From Actinernus sp. WN-2022 (lineage: Eukaryota; Cnidaria; Anthozoa; Actiniaria; Actinernidae), in contig JAOWCC010001634.1 in NCBI GenBank assembly GCA_030867875.1, positions 50,192,021-50,256,020 of the forward strand: a stretch of DNA of 64,000 bases. Reading direction: 5' to 3'. The notes beneath the pieces were generated by a model that saw nothing but the letters and a program-made list of their open reading frames with translations, was not told the origin of the DNA and ran no database searches. This document shows, one piece after another, positions 22,752 to 57,200 of this stretch. Positions within the stretch are counted from its first letter, which is position 1. Each line of letters starts with the position of its first letter. The position numbers and the translations under genes are program-made.

Positions 22752-22774
22752 GTCTGCTGACTGCTAACTTCCGG

Positions 22775-35091: not shown

Positions 35092-35326
35092 AGTAGTATA
35101 GCCGGTATTAAAATGATACCACTTTTTCTTGTGCAACAAAACTCAAAAAGTTGTCTACTTATGGACGCCTTGGTTTTCTTGCACAAGGGGCGTCATAAAG
35201 CGAATTCAGAAATCCACTTCATGACGCCCCTTGTGCAAGAAAACCAAGGCGTCCATAAGTAGACAACTTTTTAAGTTTATCTTGCACAAGAAAAAGTTGT
35301 ATCATTTTAATACCGGCTATACTACT
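35092..35326. repeat. 235-bp palindrome bounding the virus-like island
   Basis: The left arm (35092-35196) and right arm (35221-35326) are near-perfect inverted copies. The outer ends are AGTAGTATAGCCGGTATTAA and its complement; the inner ends are CAAGGGGCGTCAT and ATGACGCCCCTTG. The spacer is 24 bp. It separates the host transposon remains from the virus-like genes, and its right end lies 111 bp before the first start codon. It could be a foldback MITE or a remnant of a hairpin-type element terminus. Confidence 0.85.
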
Positions 35327-35372
35327 AGGGGTAACTAAGGGTCATTCAAAGTGTCAGCCTTTCTTACACATA

Positions 35373-35423
35373 AAAATCCAAAACTTGAGTATCTGTTAGA
35401 GACATGATTATTATACTGTATAT
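35373..35423 (+). promoter_or_regulatory. Upstream element, copy A (putative promoter)
   Basis: Contains the exact 20-mer ATGATTATTATACTGTATAT at 35404-35423, ending 14 nt before the start codon of the F-box/ankyrin-like gene. The whole ~50-bp segment, from AAAATCCA onward, is repeated after that gene at 36153-36202. The TATA-like TTATTATACTGTATA core suggests a promoter; this is inference from position and repetition. Confidence 0.5.
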
Positions 35424-35437
35424 CGATATCTTCCACT

Positions 35438-36151
35438 ATGGATTATGTATCGTGCCTCCCTCTAGAAATCTTGACTAAGATCGTAGAGCATGCAGGGCCT
35501 ACGTCATTCTCAAGCATTGCAAGGGTATCAAAACTCCTAAACGGTGCTGCATCTCTCGCGCGCTACAAAGACGTAGACCGAGAGTTCCGTATACAAGTAC
35601 TATGTTTTGGTTTGAAGTCCACTCGTAACGATGCCGATCGAAACAAATTGGTTAGGACTTTCGGCATTTCCGCAAGCCACATCGACGACAGCCTTCCTCT
35701 CATCTACGCCAGTGATCATGGCAACCTTAATATTGTTAAGTGGCTCACCAAGCACTTTCGTTTCAATAAAATGGATAGGTACACCAATAATACTCTAGAC
35801 GCTGCCTTAAGGTATGGTCATCTTGATCTCGCTAAGTGGCTCACTAAGCACTTCCAGTTCACCAAAGAGAGCAATGCCGTCATGTTTGCTATGATAGAGG
35901 CCATTACGAATGGTCAGCTTAATATCATCAAGTGGCTCATTCAACATTTTCAGATAACCGTAGAGTGTGAATACATTCATTACGCTCTACTATGCGCCTG
36001 TAGAAGTTATTATCTTGATACCTCTGGATGGTTCATTAATTGGTTCATTAAGAACTCCCATCTCACCATAGAGGCTGAAAATGCCCTACTAGACTACTAT
36101 GTGAATGTTTATGAGGCCAGGTATGGACCGATTGAATCCAACTGCACCTAA
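35438..36151 (+). CDS. F-box / ankyrin-like repeat protein
   Basis: A 237-residue intronless gene. The N-terminus (about residues 4-45) reads as an F-box: LPLEILTKIVEHAGP, then ARVSKLLNGAA. F-box proteins recruit SKP1-cullin ubiquitin ligases. From about residue 85 there are three clear and one weak repeat of 33-36 residues with the cores GNLNIVKWLTKHF, GHLDLAKWLTKHF and GQLNIIKWLIQHF. This variant of the ankyrin repeat (GHL-IVKWL) is abundant in giant DNA viruses and their protist hosts. The combination F-box plus ankyrin is a known viral host-control design, so I infer a role in steering host ubiquitination; the target is unknown. The ATG follows the repeated promoter-like element closely. 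The C-terminal 40 residues are less repeat-like. The gene is intact and co-oriented with the next two. Confidence 0.75.
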   Translation: MDYVSCLPLEILTKIVEHAGPTSFSSIARVSKLLNGAASLARYKDVDREFRIQVLCFGLKSTRNDADRNKLVRTFGISASHIDDSLPLIYASDHGNLNIVKWLTKHFRFNKMDRYTNNTLDAALRYGHLDLAKWLTKHFQFTKESNAVMFAMIEAITNGQLNIIKWLIQHFQITVECEYIHYALLCACRSYYLDTSGWFINWFIKNSHLTIEAENALLDYYVNVYEARYGPIESNCT

Positions 36152-36182
36152 GAAAATCCAACTTGAAGTATATGTTAAAGGA

Positions 36183-36202
36183 ATGATTATTATACTGTAT
36201 AT
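36183..36202 (+). promoter_or_regulatory. Upstream element, copy B (putative promoter)
   Basis: A second exact copy of ATGATTATTATACTGTATAT, embedded in a ~50-bp repeat (36153-36202), starting just after the F-box gene's stop codon. It lies 91 bp before the zinc-protein start, with AT-rich GTATATATTC between. Likely the promoter of that gene, or a leftover of a gene-cassette duplication. Confidence 0.45.
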
Positions 36203-36293
36203 TGCCACCGAATGGTATTAGTATATATTCTTTATTCCACAATACTAGCTTACGTTGTTATCTTAGTACGCATTAACACCATACAGATCGAAC

Positions 36294-36755
36294 ATGTCGA
36301 AGAAGAACTCAAATGTAGACGCCACAATGATTGAGGTAGTAACTTGTGATTGGTTGCTGAGAGGGAAGGACACGAAATGCCAAAAGAGGATTTCGAAGAC
36401 AACGAAGTTCTGTTGCCAGCACAACTACCAAATCTCAAAAGGTTGTGCCCCACTCATACCATGCTCGAAGTGCGGTAAAGGATGTCGTACTAGTTACGGG
36501 CTTTGCTCAGGATGCGACCGTCTCGCCATCAAGATGAAGTGTCCCGGTGTCTATATAAAACGCGCTAAGAAGTCCAGCAAGACGCTAGAGGGTCCAAGAA
36601 AGGAGGAACCAAACGTGGTGGAACCGGAGGAGCCTGCTGAGGTAGCATTGCCCGCAGAACCAAGAGTGGTGGAACCAGAGGAAGGTCTCGGAGAGTCTCT
36701 CAACCATGCGCTCAACGAGGTGTTGGCTGCCTTGAGGAACGAGAAGGACGCTTAG
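36294..36755 (+). CDS. Cys-rich zinc-binding protein
   Basis: A 153-residue intronless gene of unknown family. The N-terminal half carries two apparent zinc sites. The first is C18, C29, C40/C41 and H43. The second is C57-x2-C60 with C71-x2-C74, and C64 is also available (motifs PCSKCGKGC and LCSGCDR). The C-terminal half is charged and Pro/Glu-rich, with a duplicated VVEPEE motif, ending in a predicted amphipathic helix (ESLNHALNEVLAALR). The first zinc site has the look of small viral and host zinc proteins that bind nucleic acid or protein, but I cannot name a function. It lies between the F-box gene and the TFIIB-like gene on the same strand and is followed by a strong hairpin with a T-tract. 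Confidence 0.65.
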   Translation: MSKKNSNVDATMIEVVTCDWLLRGKDTKCQKRISKTTKFCCQHNYQISKGCAPLIPCSKCGKGCRTSYGLCSGCDRLAIKMKCPGVYIKRAKKSSKTLEGPRKEEPNVVEPEEPAEVALPAEPRVVEPEEGLGESLNHALNEVLAALRNEKDA

Positions 36756-36764
36756 GAATAGCCA

Positions 36765-36838
36765 CGAAAAAAGAAAAAAGGAAGAATGAAGAAGGTCGTT
36801 GCGTGGCCCTCTTCATTCTTCCTTTTTTTTTTTTTCTA
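36765..36838 (+). terminator. Hairpin with T-tract after the zinc-protein gene
   Basis: AAAAAAGGAAGAATGAAGA and TCTTCATTCTTCCTTTTTT form a ~20-bp stem around a ~17-nt loop, followed by a run of T. It starts 10-20 nt after the stop codon. Several large DNA viruses end transcripts at palindromic hairpins (established for Mimivirus), so I infer a 3'-end signal. It also resembles a bacterial rho-independent terminator in shape, though the context is not bacterial. Confidence 0.55.
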
Positions 36839-36866
36839 TTGAACGTACGACATCTATAGTTGTATC

Positions 36867-37802
36867 ATGGACGAGCTAGTCAGATTGTTCGGTCCTGGAA
36901 TTTGTAGAAGCCTGAATATCAAACCACAATTACATATTAACACAAGTGAAACATGTTCTGATTGTCTCTGTCCCCTGGAAATACAAGGAACGGAATTCGT
37001 ATGTCCCACCTGTGGTCTTGTTTCCGAGGTTGAACCATGTGAAGAAACGAAGATCGACATCATTACTACTCGACTGCGTATAGTAGGTCCGGACGGATTT
37101 CAGTATCAAAGTGATCTAGACCGAGCAAAACCAAAGCAAAGCGATAACACGGAACTACAACGACGAACGCTCCTACAAGAACTACGAGCATACAACACTA
37201 TTTACAAACAAAGTTGTGACCTATCGTTCCCTACGAACACTTTAGGAATCGTAGCTGACGCATTTATCCAAGTAATGAAAGTTCATCCCAAGCGTAGTGA
37301 TGCTAAGAGACATATTCTAGCTGCTCTACTCTACCATGCATGCATACAATGTGGATTCGTCCGATCTAAAGGTGAGGTTGCTCGCTTCATGCAACTAAGC
37401 AACAAAGGCATCCATAGAGGAGAGGTCTTTATACGTTCTCTGTGTGACGACGACGAGATCAATGTAGACTTGAATGCCGAGCGCATAGTTCCTCACATTG
37501 CAACGACTTTCCTACAGCTCGATCCTCAAGGAGTACTTATAGACGCTCAACAAATAGTCCACGAGGTTGTTTCTATGGCAATAGAAAACAATGTAGGCAG
37601 ATCGGTAATTAAGACGAAAGTTGTTGGAGCAAGTTACGAGGTGCTACATCGTTTAGGATCGTCTATGTCTCTTAACGAGGTCGTCGAACGCTGTGACGTA
37701 TTTGGAAATTCAGTCAAGCGTTTTGTCAAGGAGTTGTCTTCTTACCATTCCCACTTTGAATCAATCTACACTAAGCATGGGCTAACTAGCAGTAGGACTT
37801 AG
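36867..37802 (+). CDS. TFIIB-like transcription initiation factor
   Basis: A 311-residue intronless gene. Residues 30-49 form a zinc ribbon: C30-x2-C33 (plus C35) and C46-x2-C49-G (ETCSDCLCPLE, then FVCPTCGLVSE). The region 100-192 fits the first cyclin fold of TFIIB (KRSDAKRHILAALLYHACIQ, then VRSKGEVARFMQLSNKGIHR, matching the family's 'R....I.AA.LY.ACR..G..R...EIA....V....I.R'). Residues about 205-300 fit the second fold (GRSVIKTKVVGASYEVLHRL, then VVERCDVFGNSVKRF). TFIIB bridges TBP-DNA and RNA polymerase II. Virus-encoded versions occur in several nucleocytoplasmic large DNA viruses, where they serve viral genes. Similarity is clear in pattern but distant, and it is not a host TFIIB copy. 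It converges with the hydrophobic-protein gene 51 bp downstream. Confidence 0.75.
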   Translation: MDELVRLFGPGICRSLNIKPQLHINTSETCSDCLCPLEIQGTEFVCPTCGLVSEVEPCEETKIDIITTRLRIVGPDGFQYQSDLDRAKPKQSDNTELQRRTLLQELRAYNTIYKQSCDLSFPTNTLGIVADAFIQVMKVHPKRSDAKRHILAALLYHACIQCGFVRSKGEVARFMQLSNKGIHRGEVFIRSLCDDDEINVDLNAERIVPHIATTFLQLDPQGVLIDAQQIVHEVVSMAIENNVGRSVIKTKVVGASYEVLHRLGSSMSLNEVVERCDVFGNSVKRFVKELSSYHSHFESIYTKHGLTSSRT

Positions 37803-37853
37803 TGAAGTGAAAGTGAGAGCCATGTTCATTTCTTTCATAGGAAACGTTGATTC

Positions 37854-38465
37854 TTACATTCCAAGTTTTTCTCGCATTTCCTTTTGCACTTCTTGCTTGA
37901 GTTCGGCTCGAACCTGATCCGCGCTTTTTTCACCTATGGAAGCCTTGCGACGAATTTCAGATCTCATGATCTCATACTTATTCGCTTCGTTCAGAATGAG
38001 ACTGTATTCGGAGTCAGATATGTTTTCATCACGTAGTGCCTTCGATACTAGATCGCGAATCGTATTGATTTTTGCCTTTGCCAACATAGTTGTCTTTTCA
38101 TGCTTAGAAACCTTCATTCCTAACTTCTTAGCTCCAAGGGTCGTAGATGCTGAAATTAATCCACATAGCCCACCAATAACTCCAAGTGGTAGACCAATCA
38201 CTATTCCAACCCCAGTCAACGCTGCACCCAATCCAGATCCAGATAAGATCACAGATAGACCTCCAGTTGCCACTGCGATGCCATGAACTATTCCTTGAGA
38301 ACGTGCATATTTCTTGCGCACACCTTCGTAGTGCCTTTCTTGAACTTCTATGTCCGAAAGCGTGTCTCGGATCGTTTGCAGTCTAAAGTTCTTTCCAGTG
38401 TCACTAGCAATCTGTGGATAGATACTTGGTGCTGATGGAAACGGTTGAATCGAATCGCCTTCCAT
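37854..38465 (-). CDS. Hydrophobic membrane-associated protein with PSAP motif
   Basis: A 203-residue intronless gene. The N-terminus is Pro-rich and contains PSAP at residues 10-13, the short motif by which many proteins, viral ones included, recruit the ESCRT factor TSG101. Residues about 58-112 are a Gly-rich hydrophobic block (two predicted membrane passes, GLGAALTGVGIVIGLPLGVI and its surroundings). The C-terminal third is helical and charged (ENISDSEYSLILNEANKYEI). From memory, proteins with this layout (aromatic/Pro N-term, Gly-rich membrane hairpin, 'ISD.E..LIL.E...Y' helix) recur in many copies in cnidarian genomes, often near Polinton-like genes. A role in virion membrane or exit is inference. 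It starts 19 bp after the penton-like gene ends, so the two are probably co-transcribed. Confidence 0.6.
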   Translation of the reverse strand: MEGDSIQPFPSAPSIYPQIASDTGKNFRLQTIRDTLSDIEVQERHYEGVRKKYARSQGIVHGIAVATGGLSVILSGSGLGAALTGVGIVIGLPLGVIGGLCGLISASTTLGAKKLGMKVSKHEKTTMLAKAKINTIRDLVSKALRDENISDSEYSLILNEANKYEIMRSEIRRKASIGEKSADQVRAELKQEVQKEMREKLGM

Positions 38466-38484
38466 TGTACGTTATACGTATAGC

Positions 38485-39195
38485 TTACTCAAGCTTCAAC
38501 ACGTATCGTATAGGTCGACCACGGAAGTCTATCAGATTGCCTTTCTCATCGAGAATTGTCAGACGAAGGCTGCTTTGTATCGTACCTAGAGCTTTGACAT
38601 CTAGAGGTTGTAGTGAGGCATACGTCGTTTTCACAAATCTAGCGCCTCGGACATCTATGCTAGCCAAGACTTTCGAGCGTTTTCCCTCTAGGAGTGAGAA
38701 GCTGGAATCCACTACGTCACAGTGGACATATACCGTATCGATCTCAAAGAGGATATTTATATTGAAAGTGCCTACCGCTATAGTTAAAGTCTTGTTAGGA
38801 ATATCTATGGCCACTCTACATTCTTTAATAAACAGTCTACAGATATTTTTGCTAAGAATGATAGGTTTCATGACATCTAGGATACAACTCCCTGTCGATA
38901 AGAGTTTCCCGAATTTTATGATACCAGCGTCGATTGCGGGTTTGAAGAGGGTCTGGAGGGTTGGTATATCGTAGTTCCCCACCTTAATTTCGTGTGGAAA
39001 CATCACACCATTGACCTTCCAATGAAAGCTCCCTGGCTCTTCTAGGTTCCACCAACTGTTCTCGAAAGTGATCTCGACTAGTGAAATGTTCCGTATAAGA
39101 ATAGGGTCGTCGAAGTAGACAGTATGGTCAGCCGATGTTGTGGTGATATATAAGAGAACCATCTTATATGTTGAAGGTATAACTATATCTAGCAT
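38485..39195 (-). CDS. Penton / minor-capsid-like protein (Polinton-adintovirus type)
   Basis: About 236 residues from ATG at 39195 (a second possible ATG is at 39162). The N-terminal part has PILIRNISLVEITFENSWWN, then FPHEIKVGNYDIPTLQTLF. The C-terminal part has IDTVYVHCDVVDSSF, then a basic/aliphatic strand, then YASLQPLDVKALGTIQSSLR and ILDEKGNLIDFRGRPIRYVL. This order, an 'ISL.E..F.NSW.N' strand, 'G.YDI..L', 'VY..CD.V..S', '.Y.PL......I..I.I.I.D..G..I.F.G..I...L', fits the jelly-roll penton proteins of Polintons/adintoviruses and their unannotated relatives in cnidarian genomes. It forms the capsid vertices in that family. It is intact. Its first codon lies inside the first palindromic tip of the satellite array. 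Confidence 0.6.
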   Translation of the reverse strand: MLDIVIPSTYKMVLLYITTTSADHTVYFDDPILIRNISLVEITFENSWWNLEEPGSFHWKVNGVMFPHEIKVGNYDIPTLQTLFKPAIDAGIIKFGKLLSTGSCILDVMKPIILSKNICRLFIKECRVAIDIPNKTLTIAVGTFNINILFEIDTVYVHCDVVDSSFSLLEGKRSKVLASIDVRGARFVKTTYASLQPLDVKALGTIQSSLRLTILDEKGNLIDFRGRPIRYVLKLE

Positions 39196-39250
39196 GTTTT
39201 CACAAAAGGGGGTGTTAGGTTCCAAGGCTCCTTTTGTGAAAACATGCTAG
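39189..39250. repeat. 62-bp palindromic tip at the island/array border
   Basis: CTAGCATGTTTTCACAAAAG and its complement CTTTTGTGAAAACATGCTAG flank a 20-22-nt unpaired centre (GGGTGTTAGGTTCCAAGGCT). The same 62-bp sequence occurs at 21 of the 35 internal junctions of the array. At this border copy the left side continues into the penton-like gene (start codon at 39195-39193) instead of into a repeat unit. Confidence 0.9.
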
Positions 39251-42200
39251 ATCTTGTGTGCCTTTAAGCTTTAAAAGCCAGTTACTCGTGTTTCTGCCGT
39301 TTTCGTGAAAGCGCAAATGACAGTTTACGACTTTTCTGGCCTTTCTTTCCAATAATTGATCTGTAGGTATTTTATGAGGGTGGTGTGGGGTGGGGAGGAG
39401 TAGTTCAAATTTTTTCGCGAAAAACCAACTTTGCCTGACGTATGGCGCAACGATTTGCTTAGTGAAAGATGTACATTTTCCACTAGGTCTGAGAAAAAAG
39501 GTGCATTTTTGGGATGAAAACGTTGAAAAGTGAGTTACTGGCTTTTAAAGCCAACAAGTACGCATTAATTTACTTGTGTAACCTAAATTTCAAAGTGGCG
39601 CCATTTCTCGACCTTTTAATGGATTTCGATGCACTATACGGCAATACAACGTTCTCTTCATGTAGATTGCGTGTAATTGATGGAAGTTTCCTGTATTTTG
39701 AGTAACAATACCAGAAAATGGCCTTTTTCTAACCTAAGCATAACCTCTAGGTCTCAAATAAAGAAATTATGGGATAGATCTCACACAAGTAAATTATGGG
39801 ATAGAAAGGCCATTAAAGTCTTCAACTGTCATTTGCCGTTTCAAGAAAACGGCAAAAACACGAGTTACTGGCTTTTAAAGCTTAAAGGCACACAAGATCT
39901 AGCATGTTTTCACAAAAGGGGGTGTTAGGTTCCAAGGCTCCTTTTGTGAAAACATGCTAGATCTTGTGTGCCTTTAAGCTTTAAAAGCCAGTTACTCGTG
40001 TTTCTGCCGTTTTCGTGAAAGCGCAAATGACAGTTTACGACTTTTCTGGCCTTTCTTTCCAATAATTGATCTGTAGGTATTTTATGAGGGTGGTGTGGGG
40101 TGGGGAGGAGTAGTTCAAATTTTTTCGCGAAAAACCAACTTTGCCTGACGTATGGCGCAACGATTTGCTTAGTGAAAGATGTACATTTTCCACTAGGTCT
40201 GAGAAAAAAGGTGCATTTTTGGGATGAAAACGTTGAAAAGTGAGTTACTGGCTTTTAAAGCCAACAAGTACGCATTAATTTACTTGTGTAACCTAAATTT
40301 CAAAGTGGCGCCATTTCTCGACCTTTTAATGGATTTCGATGCACTATACGGCAATACAACGTTCTCTTCATGTAGATTGCGTGTAATTGATGGAAGTTTC
40401 CTGTATTTTGAGTAACAATACCAGAAAATGGCCTTTTTCTAACCTAAGCATAACCTCTAGGTCTCAAATAAAGAAATTATGGGATAGATCTCACACAAGT
40501 AAATTATGGGATAGAAAGGCCATTAAAGTCTTCAACTGTCATTTGCCGTTTCAAGAAAACGGCAAAAACACGAGTTACTGGCTTTTAAAGCTTAAAGGCA
40601 CACAAGAATCTTGTGTGCCTTTAAGCTTTAAAAGCCAGTTACTCGTGTTTCTGCCGTTTTCGTGAAAGCGCAAATGACAGTTTACGACTTTTCTGGCCTT
40701 TCTTTCCAATAATTGATCTGTAGGTATTTTATGAGGGTGGTGTGGGGTGGGGAGGAGTAGTTCAAATTTTTTCGCGAAAAACCAACTTTGCCTGACGTAT
40801 GGCGTAACGATTTGCTTAGTGAAAGATGTACATTTTCCACTAGGTCTGAGAAAAAAGGTGCATTTTTGGGATGAAAACGTTGAAAAGTGAGTTACTGGCT
40901 TTTAAAGCCAACAAGTACGCATTAATTTACTTGTGTAACCTAAATTTCAAAGTGGCGCCATTTCTCGACCTTTTAATGGATTTCGATGCACTATACGGCA
41001 ATACAACGTTCTCTTCATGTAGATTGCGTGTAATTGATGGAAGTTTCCTGTATTTTGAGTAACAATACCAGAAAATGGCCTTTTTCTAACCTAAGCATAA
41101 CCTCTAGGTCTCAAATAAAGAAATTATGGGATAGATCTCACACAAGTAAATTATGGGATAGAAAGGCCATTAAAGTCTTCAACTGTCATTTGCCGTTTCA
41201 AGAAAACGGCAAAAACACGAGTTACTGGCTTTTAAAGCTTAAAGGCACACAAGATCTAGCATGTTTTCACAAAAGGGGGTGTTAGGTTCCAAGGCTCCTT
41301 TTGTGAAAACATGCTAGATCTTGTGTGCCTTTAAGCTTTAAAAGCCAGTTACTCGTGTTTCTGCCGTTTTCGTGAAAGCGCAAATGACAGTTTACGACTT
41401 TTCTGGCCTTTCTTTCCAATAATTGATCTGTAGGTATTTTATGAGGGTGGTGTGGGGTGGGGAGGAGTAGTTCAAATTTTTTCGCGAAAAACCAACTTTG
41501 CCTGACGTATGGCGCAACGATTTGCTTAGTGAAAGATGTACATTTTCCACTAGGTCTGAGAAAAAAGGTGCATTTTTGGGATGAAAACGTTGAAAAGTGA
41601 GTTACTGGCTTTTAAAGCCAACAAGTACGCATTAATTTACTTGTGTAACCTAAATTTCAAAGTGGCGCCATTTCTCGACCTTTTAATGGATTTCGATGCA
41701 CTATACGGCAATACAACGTTCTCTTCATGTAGATTGCGTGTAATTGATGGAAGTTTCCTGTATTTTGAGTAACAATACCAGAAAATGGCCTTTTTCTAAC
41801 CTAAGCATAACCTCTAGGTCTCAAATAAAGAAATTATGGGATAGATCTCACACAAGTAAATTATGGGATAGAAAGGCCATTAAAGTCTTCAACTGTCATT
41901 TGCCGTTTCAAGAAAACGGCAAAAACACGAGTTACTGGCTTTTAAAGCTTAAAGGCACACAAGATCTAGCATGTTTTCACAAAAGGGGGTGTTAGGTTCC
42001 AAGGCTCCTTTTGTGAAAACATGCTAGATCTTGTGTGCCTTTAAGCTTTAAAAGCCAGTTACTCGTGTTTCTGCCGTTTTCGTGAAAGCGCAAATGACAG
42101 TTTACGACTTTTCTGGCCTTTCTTTCCAATAATTGATCTGTAGGTATTTTATGAGGGTGGTGTGGGGTGGGGAGGAGTAGTTCAAATTTTTTCGCGAAAA

Positions 42201-45200
42201 ACCAACTTTGCCTGACGTATGGCGCAACGATTTGCTTAGTGAAAGATGTACATTTTCCACTAGGTCTGAGAAAAAAGGTGCATTTTTGGGATGAAAACGT
42301 TGAAAAGTGAGTTACTGGCTTTTAAAGCCAACAAGTACGCATTAATTTACTTGTGTAACCTAAATTTCAAAGTGGCGCCATTTCTCGACCTTTTAATGGA
42401 TTTCGATGCACTATACGGCAATACAACGTTCTCTTCATGTAGATTGCGTGTAATTGATGGAAGTTTCCTGTATTTTGAGTAACAATACCAGAAAATGGCC
42501 TTTTTCTAACCTAAGCATAACCTCTAGGTCTCAAATAAAGAAATTATGGGATAGATCTCACACAAGTAAATTATGGGATAGAAAGGCCATTAAAGTCTTC
42601 AACTGTCATTTGCCGTTTCAAGAAAACGGCAAAAACACGAGTTACTGGCTTTTAAAGCTTAAAGGCACACAAGATCTAGCATGTTTTCACAAAAGGGGGT
42701 GTTAGGTTCCAAGGCTCCTTTTGTGAAAACATGCTAGATCTTGTGTGCCTTTAAGCTTTAAAAGCCAGTTACTCGTGTTTCTGCCGTTTTCGTGAAAGCG
42801 CAAATGACAGTTTACGACTTTTCTGGCCTTTCTTTCCAATAATTGATCTGTAGGTATTTTATGAGGGTGGTGTGGGGTGGGGAGGAGTAGTTCAAATTTT
42901 TTCGCGAAAAACCAACTTTGCCTGACGTATGGCGCAACGATTTGCTTAGTGAAAGATGTACATTTTCCACTAGGTCTGAGAAAAAAGGTGCATTTTTGGG
43001 ATGAAAACGTTGAAAAGTGAGTTACTGGCTTTTAAAGCCAACAAGTACGCATTAATTTACTTGTGTAACCTAAATTTCAAAGTGGCGCCATTTCTCGACC
43101 TTTTAATGGATTTCGATGCACTATACGGCAATACAACGTTCTCTTCATGTAGATTGCGTGTAATTGATGGAAGTTTCCTGTATTTTGAGTAACAATACCA
43201 GAAAATGGCCTTTTTCTAACCTAAGCATAACCTCTAGGTCTCAAATAAAGAAATTATGGGATAGATCTCACACAAGTAAATTATGGGATAGAAAGGCCAT
43301 TAAAGTCTTCAACTGTCATTTGCCGTTTCAAGAAAACGGCAAAAACACGAGTTACTGGCTTTTAAAGCTTAAAGGCACACAAGAATCTTGTGTGCCTTTA
43401 AGCTTTAAAAGCCAGTTACTCGTGTTTCTGCCGTTTTCGTGAAAGCGCAAATGACAGTTTACGACTTTTCTGGCCTTTCTTTCCAATAATTGATCTGTAG
43501 GTATTTTATGAGGGTGGTGTGGGGTGGGGAGGAGTAGTTCAATTTTTTTCGCGAAAAACCAACTTTGCCTGACGTATGGCGCAACGATTTGCTTAGTGAA
43601 AGATGTACATTTTCCACTAGGTCTGAGAAAAAAGGTGCATTTTTGGGATGAAAACGTTGAAAAGTGAGTTACTGGCTTTTAAAGCCAACAAGTACGCATT
43701 AATTTACTTGTGTAACCTAAATTTCAAAGTGGCGCCATTTCTCGACCTTTTAATGGATTTCGATGCACTATACGGCAATACAACGTTCTCTTCATGTAGA
43801 TTGCGTGTAATTGATGGAAGTTTCCTGTATTTTGAGTAACAATACCAGAAAATGGCCTTTTTCTAACCTAAGCATAACCTCTAGGTCTCAAATAATGAAA
43901 TTATGGGATAGATCTCACACAAGTAAATTATGGGATAGAAAGGCCATTAAAGTCTTCAACTGTCATTTGCCGTTTCAAGAAAACGGCAAAAACACGAGTT
44001 ACTGGCTTTTAAAGCTTAAAGGCACACAAGAATCTTGTGTGCCTTTAAGCTTTAAAAGCCAGTTACTCGTGTTTCTGCCGTTTTCGTGAAAGCGCAAATG
44101 ACAGTTTACGACTTTTCTGGCCTTTCTTTCCAATAATTGATCTGTAGGTATTTTATGAGGGTGGTGTGGGGTGGGGAGGAGTAGTTCAAATTTTTTCGCG
44201 AAAAACCAACTTTGCCTGACGTATGGCGCAACGATTTGCTTAGTGAAAGATGTACATTTTCCACTAGGTCTGAGAAAAAAGGTGCATTTTTGGGATGAAA
44301 ACGTTGAAAAGTGAGTTACTGGCTTTTAAAGCCAACAAGTACGCATTAATTTACTTGTGTAACCTAAATTTCAAAGTGGCGCCATTTCTCGACCTTTTAA
44401 TGGATTTCGATGCACTATACGGCAATACAACGTTCTCTTCATGTAGATTGCGTGTAATTGATGGAAGTTTCCTGTATTTTGAGTAACAATACCAGAAAAT
44501 GGCCTTTTTCTAACCTAAGCATAACCTCTAGGTCTCAAATAAAGAAATTATGGGATAGATCTCACACAAGTAAATTATGGGATAGAAAGGCCATTAAAGT
44601 CTTCAACTGTCATTTGCCGTTTCAAGAAAACGGCAAAAACACGAGTTACTGGCTTTTAAAGCTTAAAGGCACACAAGAATCTTGTGTGCCTTTAAGCTTT
44701 AAAAGCCAGTTACTCGTGTTTCTGCCGTTTTCGTGAAAGCGCAAATGACAGTTTACGACTTTTCTGGCCTTTCTTTCCAATAATTGATCTGTAGGTATTT
44801 TATGAGGGTGGTGTGGGGTGGGGAGGAGTAGTTCAAATTTTTTCGCGAAAAACCAACTTTGCCTGACGTATGGCGTAACGATTTGCTTAGTGAAAGATGT
44901 ACATTTTCCACTAGGTCTGAGAAAAAAGGTGCATTTTTGGGATGAAAACGTTGAAAAGTGAGTTACTGGCTTTTAAAGCCAACAAGTACGCATTAATTTA
45001 CTTGTGTAACCTAAATTTCAAAGTGGCGCCATTTCTCGACCTTTTAATGGATTTCGATGCACTATACGGCAATACAACGTTCTCTTCATGTAGATTGCGT
45101 GTAATTGATGGAAGTTTCCTGTATTTTGAGTAACAATACCAGAAAATGGCCTTTTTCTAACCTAAGCATAACCTCTAGGTCTCAAATAAAGAAATTATGG

Positions 45201-48200
45201 GATAGATCTCACACAAGTAAATTATGGGATAGAAAGGCCATTAAAGTCTTCAACTGTCATTTGCCGTTTCAAGAAAACGGCAAAAACACGAGTTACTGGC
45301 TTTTAAAGCTTAAAGGCACACAAGATCTAGCATGTTTTCACAAAAGGGGGTGTTAGGTTCCAAGGCTCCTTTTGTGAAAACATGCTAGATCTTGTGTGCC
45401 TTTAAGCTTTAAAAGCCAGTTACTCGTGTTTCTGCCGTTTTCGTGAAAGCGCAAATGACAGTTTACGACTTTTCTGGCCTTTCTTTCCAATAATTGATCT
45501 GTAGGTATTTTATGAGGGTGGTGTGGGGTGGGGAGGAGTAGTTCAAATTTTTTCGCGAAAAACCAACTTTGCCTGACGTATGGCGTAACGATTTGCTTAG
45601 TGAAAGATGTACATTTTCCACTAGGTCTGAGAAAAAAGGTGCATTTTTGGGATGAAAACGTTGAAAAGTGAGTTACTGGCTTTTAAAGCCAACAAGTACG
45701 CATTAATTTACTTGTGTAACCTAAATTTCAAAGTGGCGCCATTTCTCGACCTTTTAATGGATTTCGATGCACTATACGGCAATACAACGTTCTCTTCATG
45801 TAGATTGCGTGTAATTGATGGAAGTTTCCTGTATTTTGAGTAACAATACCAGAAAATGGCCTTTTTCTAACCTAAGCATAACCTCTAGGTCTCAAATAAA
45901 GAAATTATGGGATAGATCTCACACAAGTAAATTATGGGATAGAAAGGCCATTAAAGTCTTCAACTGTCATTTGCCGTTTCAAGAAAACGGCAAAAACACG
46001 AGTTACTGGCTTTTAAAGCTTAAAGGCACACAAGATCTAGCATGTTTTCACAAAAGGGGGTGTTAGGTTCCAAGGCTCCTTTTGTGAAAACATGCTAGAT
46101 CTTGTGTGCCTTTAAGCTTTAAAAGCCAGTTACTCGTGTTTCTGCCGTTTTCGTGAAAGCGCAAATGACAGTTTACGACTTTTCTGGCCTTTCTTTCCAA
46201 TAATTGATCTGTAGGTATTTTATGAGGGTGGTGTGGGGTGGGGAGGAGTAGTTCAAATTTTTTCGCGAAAAACCAACTTTGCCTGACGTATGGCGCAACG
46301 ATTTGCTTAGTGAAAGATGTACATTTTCCACTAGGTCTGAGAAAAAAGGTGCATTTTTGGGATGAAAACGTTGAAAAGTGAGTTACTGGCTTTTAAAGCC
46401 AACAAGTACGCATTAATTTACTTGTGTAACCTAAATTTCAAAGTGGCGCCATTTCTCGACCTTTTAATGGATTTCGATGCACTATACGGCAATACAACGT
46501 TCTCTTCATGTAGATTGCGTGTAATTGATGGAAGTTTCCTGTATTTTGAGTAACAATACCAGAAAATGGCCTTTTTCTAACCTAAGCATAACCTCTAGGT
46601 CTCAAATAAAGAAATTATGGGATAGATCTCACACAAGTAAATTATGGGATAGAAAGGCCATTAAAGTCTTCAACTGTCATTTGCCGTTTCAAGAAAACGG
46701 CAAAAACACGAGTTACTGGCTTTTAAAGCTTAAAGGCACACAAGATCTAGCATGTTTTCACAAAAGGGGGTGTTAGGTTCCAAGGCTCCTTTTGTGAAAA
46801 CATGCTAGATCTTGTGTGCCTTTAAGCTTTAAAAGCCAGTTACTCGTGTTTCTGCCGTTTTCGTGAAAGCGCAAATGACAGTTTACGACTTTTCTGGCCT
46901 TTCTTTCCAATAATTGATCTGTAGGTATTTTATGAGGGTGGTGTGGGGTGGGGAGGAGTAGTTCAAATTTTTTCGCGAAAAACCAACTTTGCCTGACGTA
47001 TGGCGCAACGATTTGCTTAGTGAAAGATGTACATTTTCCACTAGGTCTGAGAAAAAAGGTGCATTTTTGGGATGAAAACGTTGAAAAGTGAGTTACTGGC
47101 TTTTAAAGCCAACAAGTACGCATTAATTTACTTGTGTAACCTAAATTTCAAAGTGGCGCCATTTCTCGACCTTTTAATGGATTTCGATGCACTATACGGC
47201 AATACAACGTTCTCTTCATGTAGATTGCGTGTAATTGATGGAAGTTTCCTGTATTTTGAGTAACAATACCAGAAAATGGCCTTTTTCTAACCTAAGCATA
47301 ACCTCTAGGTCTCAAATAAAGAAATTATGGGATAGATCTCACACAAGTAAATTATGGGATAGAAAGGCCATTAAAGTCTTCAACTGTCATTTGCCGTTTC
47401 AAGAAAACGGCAAAAACACGAGTTACTGGCTTTTAAAGCTTAAAGGCACACAAGAATCTTGTGTGCCTTTAAGCTTTAAAAGCCAGTTACTCGTGTTTCT
47501 GCCGTTTTCGTGAAAGCGCAAATGACAGTTTACGACTTTTCTGGCCTTTCTTTCCAATAATTGATCTGTAGGTATTTTATGAGGGTGGTGTGGGGTGGGG
47601 AGGAGTAGTTCAAATTTTTTCGCGAAAAACCAACTTTGCCTGACGTATGGCGTAACGATTTGCTTAGTGAAAGATGTACATTTTCCACTAGGTCTGAGAA
47701 AAAAGGTGCATTTTTGGGATGAAAACGTTGAAAAGTGAGTTACTGGCTTTTAAAGCCAACAAGTACGCATTAATTTACTTGTGTAACCTAAATTTCAAAG
47801 TGGCGCCATTTCTCGACCTTTTAATGGATTTCGATGCACTATACGGCAATACAACGTTCTCTTCATGTAGATTGCGTGTAATTGATGGAAGTTTCCTGTA
47901 TTTTGAGTAACAATACCAGAAAATGGCCTTTTTCTAACCTAAGCATAACCTCTAGGTCTCAAATAAAGAAATTATGGGATAGATCTCACACAAGTAAATT
48001 ATGGGATAGAAAGGCCATTAAAGTCTTCAACTGTCATTTGCCGTTTCAAGAAAACGGCAAAAACACGAGTTACTGGCTTTTAAAGCTTAAAGGCACACAA
48101 GATCTAGCATGTTTTCACAAAAGGGGGTGTTAGGTTCCAAGGCTCCTTTTGTGAAAACATGCTAGATCTTGTGTGCCTTTAAGCTTTAAAAGCCAGTTAC

Positions 48201-51200
48201 TCGTGTTTCTGCCGTTTTCGTGAAAGCGCAAATGACAGTTTACGACTTTTCTGGCCTTTCTTTCCAATAATTGATCTGTAGGTATTTTATGAGGGTGGTG
48301 TGGGGTGGGGAGGAGTAGTTCAAATTTTTTCGCGAAAAACCAACTTTGCCTGACGTATGGCGCAACGATTTGCTTAGTGAAAGATGTACATTTTCCACTA
48401 GGTCTGAGAAAAAAGGTGCATTTTTGGGATGAAAACGTTGAAAAGTGAGTTACTGGCTTTTAAAGCCAACAAGTACGCATTAATTTACTTGTGTAACCTA
48501 AATTTCAAAGTGGCGCCATTTCTCGACCTTTTAATGGATTTCGATGCACTATACGGCAATACAACGTTCTCTTCATGTAGATTGCGTGTAATTGATGGAA
48601 GTTTCCTGTATTTTGAGTAACAATACCAGAAAATGGCCTTTTTCTAACCTAAGCATAACCTCTAGGTCTCAAATAAAGAAATTATGGGATAGATCTCACA
48701 CAAGTAAATTATGGGATAGAAAGGCCATTAAAGTCTTCAACTGTCATTTGCCGTTTCAAGAAAACGGCAAAAACACGAGTTACTGGCTTTTAAAGCTTAA
48801 AGGCACACAAGATCTAGCATGTTTTCACAAAAGGGGGTGTTAGGTTCCAAGGCTCCTTTTGTGAAAACATGCTAGATCTTGTGTGCCTTTAAGCTTTAAA
48901 AGCCAGTTACTCGTGTTTCTGCCGTTTTCGTGAAAGCGCAAATGACAGTTTACGACTTTTCTGGCCTTTCTTTCCAATAATTGATCTGTAGGTATTTTAT
49001 GAGGGTGGTGTGGGGTGGGGAGGAGTAGTTCAATTTTTTTCGCGAAAAACCAACTTTGCCTGACGTATGGCGCAACGATTTGCTTAGTGAAAGATGTACA
49101 TTTTCCACTAGGTCTGAGAAAAAAGGTGCATTTTTGGGATGAAAACGTTGAAAAGTGAGTTACTGGCTTTTAAAGCCAACAAGTACGCATTAATTTACTT
49201 GTGTAACCTAAATTTCAAAGTGGCGCCATTTCTCGACCTTTTAATGGATTTCGATGCACTATACGGCAATACAACGTTCTCTTCATGTAGATTGCGTGTA
49301 ATTGATGGAAGTTTCCTGTATTTTGAGTAACAATACCAGAAAATGGCCTTTTTCTAACCTAAGCATAACCTCTAGGTCTCAAATAATGAAATTATGGGAT
49401 AGATCTCACACAAGTAAATTATGGGATAGAAAGGCCATTAAAGTCTTCAACTGTCATTTGCCGTTTCAAGAAAACGGCAAAAACACGAGTTACTGGCTTT
49501 TAAAGCTTAAAGGCACACAAGAATCTTGTGTGCCTTTAAGCTTTAAAAGCCAGTTACTCGTGTTTCTGCCGTTTTCGTGAAAGCGCAAATGACAGTTTAC
49601 GACTTTTCTGGCCTTTCTTTCCAATAATTGATCTGTAGGTATTTTATGAGGGTGGTGTGGGGTGGGGAGGAGTAGTTCAAATTTTTTCGCGAAAAACCAA
49701 CTTTGCCTGACGTATGGCGTAACGATTTGCTTAGTGAAAGATGTACATTTTCCACTAGGTCTGAGAAAAAAGGTGCATTTTTGGGATGAAAACGTTGAAA
49801 AGTGAGTTACTGGCTTTTAAAGCCAACAAGTACGCATTAATTTACTTGTGTAACCTAAATTTCAAAGTGGCGCCATTTCTCGACCTTTTAATGGATTTCG
49901 ATGCACTATACGGCAATACAACGTTCTCTTCATGTAGATTGCGTGTAATTGATGGAAGTTTCCTGTATTTTGAGTAACAATACCAGAAAATGGCCTTTTT
50001 CTAACCTAAGCATAACCTCTAGGTCTCAAATAAAGAAATTATGGGATAGATCTCACACAAGTAAATTATGGGATAGAAAGGCCATTAAAGTCTTCAACTG
50101 TCATTTGCCGTTTCAAGAAAACGGCAAAAACACGAGTTACTGGCTTTTAAAGCTTAAAGGCACACAAGATCTAGCATGTTTTCACAAAAGGGGGTGTTAG
50201 GTTCCAAGGCTCCTTTTGTGAAAACATGCTAGATCTTGTGTGCCTTTAAGCTTTAAAAGCCAGTTACTCGTGTTTCTGCCGTTTTCGTGAAAGCGCAAAT
50301 GACAGTTTACGACTTTTCTGGCCTTTCTTTCCAATAATTGATCTGTAGGTATTTTATGAGGGTGGTGTGGGGTGGGGAGGAGTAGTTCAAATTTTTTCGC
50401 GAAAAACCAACTTTGCCTGACGTATGGCGCAACGATTTGCTTAGTGAAAGATGTACATTTTCCACTAGGTCTGAGAAAAAAGGTGCATTTTTGGGATGAA
50501 AACGTTGAAAAGTGAGTTACTGGCTTTTAAAGCCAACAAGTACGCATTAATTTACTTGTGTAACCTAAATTTCAAAGTGGCGCCATTTCTCGACCTTTTA
50601 ATGGATTTCGATGCACTATACGGCAATACAACGTTCTCTTCATGTAGATTGCGTGTAATTGATGGAAGTTTCCTGTATTTTGAGTAACAATACCAGAAAA
50701 TGGCCTTTTTCTAACCTAAGCATAACCTCTAGGTCTCAAATAAAGAAATTATGGGATAGATCTCACACAAGTAAATTATGGGATAGAAAGGCCATTAAAG
50801 TCTTCAACTGTCATTTGCCGTTTCAAGAAAACGGCAAAAACACGAGTTACTGGCTTTTAAAGCTTAAAGGCACACAAGATCTAGCATGTTTTCACAAAAG
50901 GGGGTGTTAGGTTCCAAGGCTCCTTTTGTGAAAACATGCTAGATCTTGTGTGCCTTTAAGCTTTAAAAGCCAGTTACTCGTGTTTCTGCCGTTTTCGTGA
51001 AAGCGCAAATGACAGTTTACGACTTTTCTGGCCTTTCTTTCCAATAATTGATCTGTAGGTATTTTATGAGGGTGGTGTGGGGTGGGGAGGAGTAGTTCAA
51101 TTTTTTTCGCGAAAAACCAACTTTGCCTGACGTATGGCGCAACGATTTGCTTAGTGAAAGATGTACATTTTCCACTAGGTCTGAGAAAAAAGGTGCATTT

Positions 51201-54200
51201 TTGGGATGAAAACGTTGAAAAGTGAGTTACTGGCTTTTAAAGCCAACAAGTACGCATTAATTTACTTGTGTAACCTAAATTTCAAAGTGGCGCCATTTCT
51301 CGACCTTTTAATGGATTTCGATGCACTATACGGCAATACAACGTTCTCTTCATGTAGATTGCGTGTAATTGATGGAAGTTTCCTGTATTTTGAGTAACAA
51401 TACCAGAAAATGGCCTTTTTCTAACCTAAGCATAACCTCTAGGTCTCAAATAATGAAATTATGGGATAGATCTCACACAAGTAAATTATGGGATAGAAAG
51501 GCCATTAAAGTCTTCAACTGTCATTTGCCGTTTCAAGAAAACGGCAAAAACACGAGTTACTGGCTTTTAAAGCTTAAAGGCACACAAGAATCTTGTGTGC
51601 CTTTAAGCTTTAAAAGCCAGTTACTCGTGTTTCTGCCGTTTTCGTGAAAGCGCAAATGACAGTTTACGACTTTTCTGGCCTTTCTTTCCAATAATTGATC
51701 TGTAGGTATTTTATGAGGGTGGTGTGGGGTGGGGAGGAGTAGTTCAAATTTTTTCGCGAAAAACCAACTTTGCCTGACGTATGGCGCAACGATTTGCTTA
51801 GTGAAAGATGTACATTTTCCACTAGGTCTGAGAAAAAAGGTGCATTTTTGGGATGAAAACGTTGAAAAGTGAGTTACTGGCTTTTAAAGCCAACAAGTAC
51901 GCATTAATTTACTTGTGTAACCTAAATTTCAAAGTGGCGCCATTTCTCGACCTTTTAATGGATTTCGATGCACTATACGGCAATACAACGTTCTCTTCAT
52001 GTAGATTGCGTGTAATTGATGGAAGTTTCCTGTATTTTGAGTAACAATACCAGAAAATGGCCTTTTTCTAACCTAAGCATAACCTCTAGGTCTCAAATAA
52101 TGAAATTATGGGATAGATCTCACACAAGTAAATTATGGGATAGAAAGGCCATTAAAGTCTTCAACTGTCATTTGCCGTTTCAAGAAAACGGCAAAAACAC
52201 GAGTTACTGGCTTTTAAAGCTTAAAGGCACACAAGAATCTTGTGTGCCTTTAAGCTTTAAAAGCCAGTTACTCGTGTTTCTGCCGTTTTCGTGAAAGCGC
52301 AAATGACAGTTTACGACTTTTCTGGCCTTTCTTTCCAATAATTGATCTGTAGGTATTTTATGAGGGTGGTGTGGGGTGGGGAGGAGTAGTTCAAATTTTT
52401 TCGCGAAAAACCAACTTTGCCTGACGTATGGCGCAACGATTTGCTTAGTGAAAGATGTACATTTTCCACTAGGTCTGAGAAAAAAGGTGCATTTTTGGGA
52501 TGAAAACGTTGAAAAGTGAGTTACTGGCTTTTAAAGCCAACAAGTACGCATTAATTTACTTGTGTAACCTAAATTTCAAAGTGGCGCCATTTCTCGACCT
52601 TTTAATGGATTTCGATGCACTATACGGCAATACAACGTTCTCTTCATGTAGATTGCGTGTAATTGATGGAAGTTTCCTGTATTTTGAGTAACAATACCAG
52701 AAAATGGCCTTTTTCTAACCTAAGCATAACCTCTAGGTCTCAAATAAAGAAATTATGGGATAGATCTCACACAAGTAAATTATGGGATAGAAAGGCCATT
52801 AAAGTCTTCAACTGTCATTTGCCGTTTCAAGAAAACGGCAAAAACACGAGTTACTGGCTTTTAAAGCTTAAAGGCACACAAGAATCTTGTGTGCCTTTAA
52901 GCTTTAAAAGCCAGTTACTCGTGTTTCTGCCGTTTTCGTGAAAGCGCAAATGACAGTTTACGACTTTTCTGGCCTTTCTTTCCAATAATTGATCTGTAGG
53001 TATTTTATGAGGGTGGTGTGGGGTGGGGAGGAGTAGTTCAAATTTTTTCGCGAAAAACCAACTTTGCCTGACGTATGGCGCAACGATTTGCTTAGTGAAA
53101 GATGTACATTTTCCACTAGGTCTGAGAAAAAAGGTGCATTTTTGGGATGAAAACGTTGAAAAGTGAGTTACTGGCTTTTAAAGCCAACAAGTACGCATTA
53201 ATTTACTTGTGTAACCTAAATTTCAAAGTGGCGCCATTTCTCGACCTTTTAATGGATTTCGATGCACTATACGGCAATACAACGTTCTCTTCATGTAGAT
53301 TGCGTGTAATTGATGGAAGTTTCCTGTATTTTGAGTAACAATACCAGAAAATGGCCTTTTTCTAACCTAAGCATAACCTCTAGGTCTCAAATAAAGAAAT
53401 TATGGGATAGATCTCACACAAGTAAATTATGGGATAGAAAGGCCATTAAAGTCTTCAACTGTCATTTGCCGTTTCAAGAAAACGGCAAAAACACGAGTTA
53501 CTGGCTTTTAAAGCTTAAAGGCACACAAGATCTAGCATGTTTTCACAAAAGGGGGTGTTAGGTTCCAAGGCTCCTTTTGTGAAAACATGCTAGATCTTGT
53601 GTGCCTTTAAGCTTTAAAAGCCAGTTACTCGTGTTTCTGCCGTTTTCGTGAAAGCGCAAATGACAGTTTACGACTTTTCTGGCCTTTCTTTCCAATAATT
53701 GAGCTGTAGGTATTTTATGAGGGTGGTGTGGGGTGGGGAGGAGTAGTTCAAATTTTTTCGCGAAAAACCAACTTTGCCTGACGTATGGCGCAACGATTTG
53801 CTTAGTGAAAGATGTACATTTTCCACTAGGTCTGAGAAAAAAGGTGCATTTTTGGGATGAAAACGTTGAAAAGTGAGTTACTGGCTTTTAAAGCCAACAA
53901 GTACGCATTAATTTACTTGTGTAACCTAAATTTCAAAGTGGCGCCATTTCTCGACCTTTTAATGGATTTCGATGCACTATACGGCAATACAACGTTCTCT
54001 TCATGTAGATTGCGTGTAATTGATGGAAGTTTCCTGTATTTTGAGTAACAATACCAGAAAATGGCCTTTTTCTAACCTAAGCATAACCTCTAGGTCTCAA
54101 ATAAAGAAATTATGGGATAGATCTCACACAAGTAAATTATGGGATAGAAAGGCCATTAAAGTCTTCAACTGTCATTTGCCGTTTCAAGAAAACGGCAAAA

Positions 54201-57200
54201 ACACGAGTTACTGGCTTTTAAAGCTTAAAGGCACACAAGATCTAGCATGTTTTCACAAAAGGGGGTGTTAGGTTCCAAGGCTCCTTTTGTGAAAACATGC
54301 TAGATCTTGTGTGCCTTTAAGCTTTAAAAGCCAGTTACTCGTGTTTCTGCCGTTTTCGTGAAAGCGCAAATGACAGTTTACGACTTTTCTGGCCTTTCTT
54401 TCCAATAATTGATCTGTAGGTATTTTATGAGGGTGGTGTGGGGTGGGGAGGAGTAGTTCAATTTTTTTCGCGAAAAACCAACTTTGCCTGACGTATGGCG
54501 CAACGATTTGCTTAGTGAAAGATGTACATTTTCCACTAGGTCTGAGAAAAAAGGTGCATTTTTGGGATGAAAACGTTGAAAAGTGAGTTACTGGCTTTTA
54601 AAGCCAACAAGTACGCATTAATTTACTTGTGTAACCTAAATTTCAAAGTGGCGCCATTTCTCGACCTTTTAATGGATTTCGATGCACTATACGGCAATAC
54701 AACGTTCTCTTCATGTAGATTGCGTGTAATTGATGGAAGTTTCCTGTATTTTGAGTAACAATACCAGAAAATGGCCTTTTTCTAACCTAAGCATAACCTC
54801 TAGGTCTCAAATAATGAAATTATGGGATAGATCTCACACAAGTAAATTATGGGATAGAAAGGCCATTAAAGTCTTCAACTGTCATTTGCCGTTTCAAGAA
54901 AACGGCAAAAACACGAGTTACTGGCTTTTAAAGCTTAAAGGCACACAAGAATCTTGTGTGCCTTTAAGCTTTAAAAGCCAGTTACTCGTGTTTCTGCCGT
55001 TTTCGTGAAAGCGCAAATGACAGTTTACGACTTTTCTGGCCTTTCTTTCCAATAATTGATCTGTAGGTATTTTATGAGGGTGGTGTGGGGTGGGGAGGAG
55101 TAGTTCAAATTTTTTCGCGAAAAACCAACTTTGCCTGACGTATGGCGCAACGATTTGCTTAGTGAAAGATGTACATTTTCCACTAGGTCTGAGAAAAAAG
55201 GTGCATTTTTGGGATGAAAACGTTGAAAAGTGAGTTACTGGCTTTTAAAGCCAACAAGTACGCATTAATTTACTTGTGTAACCTAAATTTCAAAGTGGCG
55301 CCATTTCTCGACCTTTTAATGGATTTCGATGCACTATACGGCAATACAACGTTCTCTTCATGTAGATTGCGTGTAATTGATGGAAGTTTCCTGTATTTTG
55401 AGTAACAATACCAGAAAATGGCCTTTTTCTAACCTAAGCATAACCTCTAGGTCTCAAATAAAGAAATTATGGGATAGATCTCACACAAGTAAATTATGGG
55501 ATAGAAAGGCCATTAAAGTCTTCAACTGTCATTTGCCGTTTCAAGAAAACGGCAAAAACACGAGTTACTGGCTTTTAAAGCTTAAAGGCACACAAGAATC
55601 TTGTGTGCCTTTAAGCTTTAAAAGCCAGTTACTCGTGTTTCTGCCGTTTTCGTGAAAGCGCAAATGACAGTTTACGACTTTTCTGGCCTTTCTTTCCAAT
55701 AATTGATCTGTAGGTATTTTATGAGGGTGGTGTGGGGTGGGGAGGAGTAGTTCAAATTTTTTCGCGAAAAACCAACTTTGCCTGACGTATGGCGCAACGA
55801 TTTGCTTAGTGAAAGATGTACATTTTCCACTAGGTCTGAGAAAAAAGGTGCATTTTTGGGATGAAAACGTTGAAAAGTGAGTTACTGGCTTTTAAAGCCA
55901 ACAAGTACGCATTAATTTACTTGTGTAACCTAAATTTCAAAGTGGCGCCATTTCTCGACCTTTTAATGGATTTCGATGCACTATACGGCAATACAACGTT
56001 CTCTTCATGTAGATTGCGTGTAATTGATGGAAGTTTCCTGTATTTTGAGTAACAATACCAGAAAATGGCCTTTTTCTAACCTAAGCATAACCTCTAGGTC
56101 TCAAATAAAGAAATTATGGGATAGATCTCACACAAGTAAATTATGGGATAGAAAGGCCATTAAAGTCTTCAACTGTCATTTGCCGTTTCAAGAAAACGGC
56201 AAAAACACGAGTTACTGGCTTTTAAAGCTTAAAGGCACACAAGATCTAGCATGTTTTCACAAAAGGGGGTGTTAGGTTCCAAGGCTCCTTTTGTGAAAAC
56301 ATGCTAGATCTTGTGTGCCTTTAAGCTTTAAAAGCCAGTTACTCGTGTTTCTGCCGTTTTCGTGAAAGCGCAAATGACAGTTTACGACTTTTCTGGCCTT
56401 TCTTTCCAATAATTGATCTGTAGGTATTTTATGAGGGTGGTGTGGGGTGGGGAGGAGTAGTTCAAATTTTTTCGCGAAAAACCAACTTTGCCTGACGTAT
56501 GGCGCAACGATTTGCTTAGTGAAAGATGTACATTTTCCACTAGGTCTGAGAAAAAAGGTGCATTTTTGGGATGAAAACGTTGAAAAGTGAGTTACTGGCT
56601 TTTAAAGCCAACAAGTACGCATTAATTTACTTGTGTAACCTAAATTTCAAAGTGGCGCCATTTCTCGACCTTTTAATGGATTTCGATGCACTATACGGCA
56701 ATACAACGTTCTCTTCATGTAGATTGCGTGTAATTGATGGAAGTTTCCTGTATTTTGAGTAACAATACCAGAAAATGGCCTTTTTCTAACCTAAGCATAA
56801 CCTCTAGGTCTCAAATAAAGAAATTATGGGATAGATCTCACACAAGTAAATTATGGGATAGAAAGGCCATTAAAGTCTTCAACTGTCATTTGCCGTTTCA
56901 AGAAAACGGCAAAAACACGAGTTACTGGCTTTTAAAGCTTAAAGGCACACAAGATCTAGCATGTTTTCACAAAAGGGGGTGTTAGGTTCCAAGGCTCCTT
57001 TTGTGAAAACATGCTAGATCTTGTGTGCCTTTAAGCTTTAAAAGCCAGTTACTCGTGTTTCTGCCGTTTTCGTGAAAGCGCAAATGACAGTTTACGACTT
57101 TTCTGGCCTTTCTTTCCAATAATTGAGCTGTAGGTATTTTATGAGGGTGGTGTGGGGTGGGGAGGAGTAGTTCAAATTTTTTCGCGAAAAACCAACTTTG

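Follow-up and report, generated by a model that had tools for sequence, protein, structure and literature searches.

How did five intact, intronless genes come to stand closely packed in a repeat-rich part of an animal genome? The question is posed by a 64,000-nt window (the whole stretch of DNA that we analysed: contig JAOWCC010001634.1 of assembly GCA_030867875.1, positions 50,192,021 to 50,256,020 of the forward strand) of the actiniarian Actinernus sp. WN-2022. An initial annotation had described there a virus-like island of F-box/ankyrin-like, Cys-rich zinc, TFIIB-like, hydrophobic PSAP-containing and penton-like genes, and had raised the idea of an undescribed lineage combining Polinton-type and giant-virus traits. 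We infer a viral origin for this block and regard it as moderately probable that an endogenised double-stranded DNA virus left it as a fragment, with a palindromic element on its left and a satellite on its right. Such a virus would most likely be Polinton-like or a small relative of giant viruses.

The block itself is real. Five intact, intronless, non-overlapping open reading frames (ORFs) that begin with ATG and encode 153 to 311 residues occupy positions 35438-39162, within a block of about 3.9 kb in apparently animal DNA with one repeat on either side, much as first described:

35438..36151, + strand: gene 1, F-box-like N terminus and ankyrin repeats, 237 residues
36294..36755, + strand: gene 2, Cys-rich protein, 153 residues
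36867..37802, + strand: gene 3, TFIIB-like, 311 residues
37854..38465, - strand: gene 4, helical and hydrophobic at its centre, with N-terminal PSAP and IYPQI, 203 residues
38485..39162, - strand: gene 5, proposed penton-like protein, 225 residues from this ATG

Genes 1-3 converge on genes 4-5 at 37802/37854, and the gaps from gene 1 to gene 5 measure 142, 111, 51 and 19 nt. The density of intronless ORFs is far above chance: among 1,000 dinucleotide shuffles of 35327-39181, 984 lacked any ATG ORF as long as 150 residues and 16 held one, the longest ATG ORF being 205 residues, against six in the real sequence, the sixth of which is an antisense overlap of 179 residues. On the sense strand of the block, every AATAAA/ATTAAA either falls within a gene or lies over 1 kb beyond a stop. 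That these are host genes, or host-domesticated retrogenes, adjacent by chance is very improbable, given five intronless ORFs spaced 19-142 nt apart and no AATAAA/ATTAAA soon after them, together with the distance of gene 3 from typical cellular TFIIB and the late-domain-like motifs of gene 4 (both below), even if ankyrin, F-box and TFIIB domains are generally known to be common in animals and retroelements surround the block.

Gene 3 is best read as a TFIIB-like factor, because of its length, domain order and collinearity. A four-Cys ribbon at residues 30-49 (CxxC at 30 and 46) is followed by one or more cyclin repeats, and the best PDB chain is a TFIIB of 316 residues, which we take to be the human protein (E 0.013), with residues 99-188 collinear with its residues 104-197. 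With the Pfam TFIIB repeat model, the whole protein scored 3.2e-4 and its C-terminal part 7.4e-5 (23.1 bits against a cut-off of 23.6), and the NCBIfam TFIIB model gave 0.0012, far under its cut-off; the TFIIB-like label of the initial annotation is supported by the collinear PDB chain and falls short of the curated thresholds. The ribbon by itself is not diagnostic, since it favours a Cas12f-type ribbon model (5e-4) over the TFIIB ribbon (0.59). None of 1,448 candidates from a large protein search reached E <= 0.01, and no match was found in phage records.

TFIIB also occurs in cells. A TFIIB-like gene would point towards giant-virus-like transcription, as TFIIB is described as a near-universal marker of the nucleocytoplasmic large DNA viruses (NCLDV; PMC12638062, in excerpt). 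This favours a second explanation, in which the block is the remnant of a large NCLDV insertion with TFIIB and F-box/ankyrin as native genes and genes 4 and 5 as poorly known NCLDV genes; NCLDV marker genes have been described in Hydra and Exaiptasia (PMC5294986, in excerpt), and we nonetheless judge this explanation rather improbable, for reasons that lie in gene 4 and in the searches for hallmark genes.

On the evidence of its sequence relatives, gene 4 is a member of a conserved family and not a chance ORF. Of 1,299 candidates, 21 database proteins are related to it at E <= 0.1 (4.4e-51 to 5.8e-36; identity 43-56%), none of which has a name or a Pfam domain in the search table. The largest contigs that hold these relatives measure 0.9-31.6 kb for 19 of them and 1.8 and 2.8 Mb for the other two, which may tell against a large NCLDV insertion. 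Across the 22 members, Pfam gave scattered weak matches (best 8.8e-4, DUF677, 5 of 22); the window's protein matched one PDB chain (0.021) and a PHROG family whose function is unknown (0.0024). Its branch in the family tree is long (0.73), and no grouping with another member is well supported.

The conserved feature of the family that may bear on function is its N terminus. All 22 members carry [LIV]YPx[LIV] among their first 30 residues. Y and P are invariant, and the motif ends in L in 8 members, in V in 11 and in I in 3, of which the window's protein is one. P[ST]AP is present in four: the window's protein, where it precedes the YP motif, and P0004, P0006 (near-copies of each other) and P0009, where it follows it. 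Past residue 40, neither motif is found in any of the 22. On the tree, P[ST]AP requires two changes, with a single change in 24% of 200 bootstrap trees, so that an origin in one clade is not settled. The strict late-domain rule is YPxL, and the N terminus may be likened to an ALIX late domain in this wider sense; conservation of the YP motif may also have another cause. Viral PTAP and YPDL-like motifs bind ESCRT-I (endosomal sorting complexes required for transport) and ALIX (PMC2958808, in excerpt). The family shares YPx[LIV] (22 of 22) and P[ST]AP (4 of 22) near the N terminus with retroviral Gag and other viral late-domain proteins, a likeness of motifs alone: unlike those proteins, gene 4 has a predicted hairpin of helices whose tip is hydrophobic, and the family has the final L in only 8 of 22 members.

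The structure model of gene 4, built from the 22-row family alignment (A1), has a mean predicted local distance difference test score (pLDDT) of 64.1 and a predicted template modelling score of 0.38. Hydropathy marks the centre, about residues 70-108, as hydrophobic; both the PSAP and the hydrophobic stretch of the original description are present. Two long predicted helices (24-83 and 87-146) turn within that stretch, accompanied by two shorter helices and a low-confidence N terminus. We regard the helical hairpin with a hydrophobic tip as a prediction of moderate confidence. A fold search of the PDB returned 402 matches at E <= 10 and none at E <= 0.001, which we take as no match; the best 50 of the 402 belong to fold types such as helical bundles, BAR domains and alpha-pore-forming toxins.

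The plus-strand set opens with genes 1 and 2. Gene 1 has solid ankyrin repeats by sequence (Pfam Ank_2 6.5e-13, 49.5 bits against a cut-off of 27.3), and its PDB matches are ankyrin-repeat proteins, many of them designed (best 60 of 169); it also matches a PHROG family of unknown function at 4.4e-5 and contains an internal repeat of 96 nt in three copies. The F-box of the initial annotation is only suggestive: F-box-like (0.0028, 17.8 bits) and F-box (0.0039, 17.5 bits) matches lie at the N terminus, the expected place, and miss cut-offs of 24.3 and 20.5 bits. F-box/ankyrin genes are typical of Nucleocytoviricota. The gene is framed by a direct repeat:

35373..35423, + strand: direct repeat copy 1, about 50 nt, upstream of gene 1
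36153..36202, + strand: direct repeat copy 2, right after the gene 1 stop, 87% identical to copy 1

This repeat may have been left by a tandem duplication of gene 1, and it is no more than a guess that the upstream copy is the tail of a lost gene 1 copy; a hint of gene duplication would suit an NCLDV remnant.

Gene 2 encodes 11 Cys, arranged as C-x10-C-x10-C-x2-H followed by two CxxC pairs, and ends in a Pro/Glu-rich tail. Searches gave it no PDB match and nothing among families beyond Zn_Ribbon_1 at E 4.4; the Cys-rich half of its first description stands, and the zinc-binding half is presumed. Between it and gene 3 lies the following element:

36766..36836, + strand: hairpin with T run, 71 nt, -41.7 kcal/mol, z -8.1

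None of 200 shuffles was as stable. It resembles a terminator or 3'-end signal, and such an intergenic hairpin would again accord with NCLDV ancestry. A general rule of hairpins at gene ends was discarded, with one strong hairpin among five folded stretches.

The penton-like identity of gene 5 is unproven. Its N-terminal part may resemble Polinton-type pentons, which is no more than an impression on our side. None of 290 candidates in a protein search reached E <= 0.01; Pfam and NCBIfam gave no match, PHROG gave one at 0.12 only, and PDB matches were at E 0.4 or worse. Structure prediction, a check put forward in the initial annotation, succeeded for gene 4 in the sense given above and failed for gene 5, whose single-sequence model (pLDDT 32.5) is unusable.

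The initial annotation had proposed looking beyond the array for a major capsid protein, packaging ATPase, polymerase B and integrase. A Pfam scan (E <= 0.01) of the five genes and of all 21 stop-to-stop ORFs of at least 110 residues left of 35400 found no capsid, packaging ATPase, polymerase, integrase or protease: neither the protein-primed PolB and rve integrase by which Mavericks are recognised, nor a double jelly-roll major capsid protein with its packaging ATPase and protease, nor the NCLDV set of major capsid protein, A32 ATPase, PolB, VLTF3 and RNA polymerase. The scan did not extend to shorter ORFs, to broken pieces or to the satellite, and Pfam may miss divergent genes, a capsid gene included. 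With no NCLDV marker except TFIIB, the remnant of a large NCLDV insertion loses ground, as it does in IMG/VR: pattern scans matched 5 stretches for gene 1, 4 for gene 2, 2 for gene 3, 14 for gene 4 and 34 for gene 5, none of them confirmed by tblastn, the reach of such single-sequence scans being limited to close relatives. With the gene 4 alignment A1, 189 stretches in IMG/VR and 39 in GTDB genome contigs were matched, and again none was confirmed.

The block has the following edges:

35092..35326, no strand assigned: near-perfect palindrome forming the left edge, each arm about 117 nt long, arms 92-94% complementary
39187..64000, no strand assigned: satellite array at the right edge, 710/647-bp units, 37 unit starts, up to 63875

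Set against five later copies, the junction places the satellite start near 39187, with 24 nt separating it from the ATG of gene 5 on the upstream side, and alternative gene 5 starts (ATG at 39192 and TTG at 39225) fall inside the satellite. With the palindrome on the left, this makes it most likely that the block is a fragment and that the upstream region of gene 5 has been lost. What distinguishes the 710- from the 647-bp units is a short palindrome of about 63 bp (GATCTAGCATG...CATGCTAGATC), as seen at six junctions compared, and the first unit also contains inverted arms of 135 nt.

At its exact boundaries the palindrome begins AGTAGT and ends ACTACT, and the commonest end motif of vertebrate Mavericks is 5'-(AGT)2//(ACT)2-3' (PMC8097293, in excerpt), a correspondence that we spotted post hoc. 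On its sequence, the palindrome may be two Polinton/Maverick terminal repeats with the interior deleted, or another palindromic element; it sits beside the five genes, not around them. Directly to its left, 33792-35084 is a further repeat element, with inverted repeats at 34000-34072/34519-34591 and a segment, 35030-35084, that matches 33792-33846 in reverse.

These ends lend weight to a third explanation, according to which an ordinary Polinton/Maverick or adintovirus of the host lineage left the block behind as a fragment, with genes 1-3 as accessory cargo, TFIIB as a captured gene and no new lineage. Polintoviruses are reportedly widespread in stony corals, by the title of Stephens 2024. 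Like Maverick, Polinton and adintovirus elements, the block has dense intronless genes in two convergent sets, an inverted repeat close by with (AGT)2//(ACT)2 ends and, in gene 4, a small protein of membrane-active type comparable to the loosely defined 'Macc' (membrane-active capsid core) class, a functional grouping and not a homology (PMC11071296, in excerpt). Convergent gene sets belong to the general description of vertebrate Mavericks, whose accessory regions hold diverse ORFs with modules facing each other (PMC8097293, in excerpt), and the capsid genes of cnidarians group apart from the main Maverick cluster (PMC10120064, in excerpt). Unlike those elements, the block shows no identified polymerase, integrase, capsid, ATPase or protease and carries TFIIB-like and F-box/ankyrin genes; no core Maverick gene turned up in the ORFs scanned, the palindrome is without a 6-bp target duplication, and none of the 21 gene 4 relatives is named or has a Pfam domain. 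As the block is probably a fragment, the missing PolB and integrase are compatible with Maverick descent, and we consider this explanation unlikely. Among the matches listed in our literature search, no title or abstract opening joined an animal Polinton with TFIIB or late domains.

We return to the fragment of an endogenised double-stranded DNA virus. In such a virus, the plus-strand genes 1-3 would form a regulatory set and the minus-strand genes 4-5 probably a structural one. The TFIIB-like product of gene 3 would recruit RNA polymerase to viral promoters, with gene 2 as the Cys-rich zinc protein of the same set, and gene 1, through a presumed F-box activity, would send a host or rival protein to ubiquitin-mediated breakdown. 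Gene 4 would recruit ESCRT by its N-terminal late-domain-like motifs, which precede a putative membrane-inserting helical hairpin, and gene 5 would perhaps be the vertex (penton) protein. The block resembles Nucleocytoviricota, mriyaviruses included, in its TFIIB-like gene, putative F-box/ankyrin gene and intergenic hairpin and differs from them in that major capsid protein, VLTF3, A32 ATPase, PolB and RNA polymerase were not found in the scanned ORFs; the word TFIIB is absent from the mriyavirus paper.

A bolder version, which we hold to be possible and rather doubtful, is that the block represents an undescribed lineage of animal-integrating DNA viruses between Polinton-like and giant viruses, with its own TFIIB and partly self-run transcription, and with a small virion protein whose ALIX and Tsg101 motifs bring in ESCRT, as is known of enveloped viruses. 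The combination of both sides proposed at the outset finds partial support in the real block, the TFIIB-like marker, the gene 4 family and the Maverick-type palindrome ends; on the Polinton side it depends on genes 4 and 5, for which no relative of known identity was found, and because no hallmark gene was found nearby we put it forward as a hypothesis. If it is true, an integrating animal DNA virus would carry a transcription-initiation factor used as a marker of giant viruses, and this would be of help in locating the transition from Polinton-like to giant viruses. The gene 4 family, with 22 members of which none is named in the search table, provides in its conserved YPx[LIV] N termini a testable lead on ESCRT use by midsize DNA viruses.

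Several observations pull the other way and temper our preference for a viral fragment. Both Pfam TFIIB scores of gene 3 and both F-box scores of gene 1 stay under their curated cut-offs, gene 5 gave no relative or family match in the searches made, and only 8 of the 22 gene 4 proteins have the final L of the strict motif, the window's own having I. The Pfam scan found no hallmark gene among the five genes and the 21 left-hand ORFs, and the IMG/VR pattern scans yielded no confirmed relative of the five genes. Vertebrate Mavericks that are intact show 6-bp target duplications (PMC8097293, in excerpt), and the flanks of the palindrome, ACAAGG and AGGGGT, hold none, only a 3-bp AGG/AGG. The four folded stretches other than the hairpin are ordinary (z -0.58 to 0.83). 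The G+C content of the block (0.42-0.43) equals that of the adjoining 2 kb on the left (0.42-0.43), with 0.38-0.40 in the satellite, and the two gene sets could have been brought together by rearrangement.

The surroundings are rich in repeats, in keeping with the transposon DNA of the first description: the 21 left-hand ORFs comprise four with reverse transcriptase matches (one below its cut-off), one endonuclease, one with a SAP domain and 15 without a match, and the right side is taken up by the satellite. No further copies of genes 1-5 were found elsewhere in the 64-kb window, and Rfam gave no match at gathering score. A candidate motif common to the upstream regions of the five genes was rejected, as shuffles did as well in 98 of 100 cases for 7-mers, 86 of 100 for 8-mers and 16 of 100 for 9-mers. 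The SAP-domain ORF (2.6e-8) lies at 22143-22763 on the minus strand, and near the left end of the window, at 1042-2609, stands a tandem array with a 147/289-bp unit.

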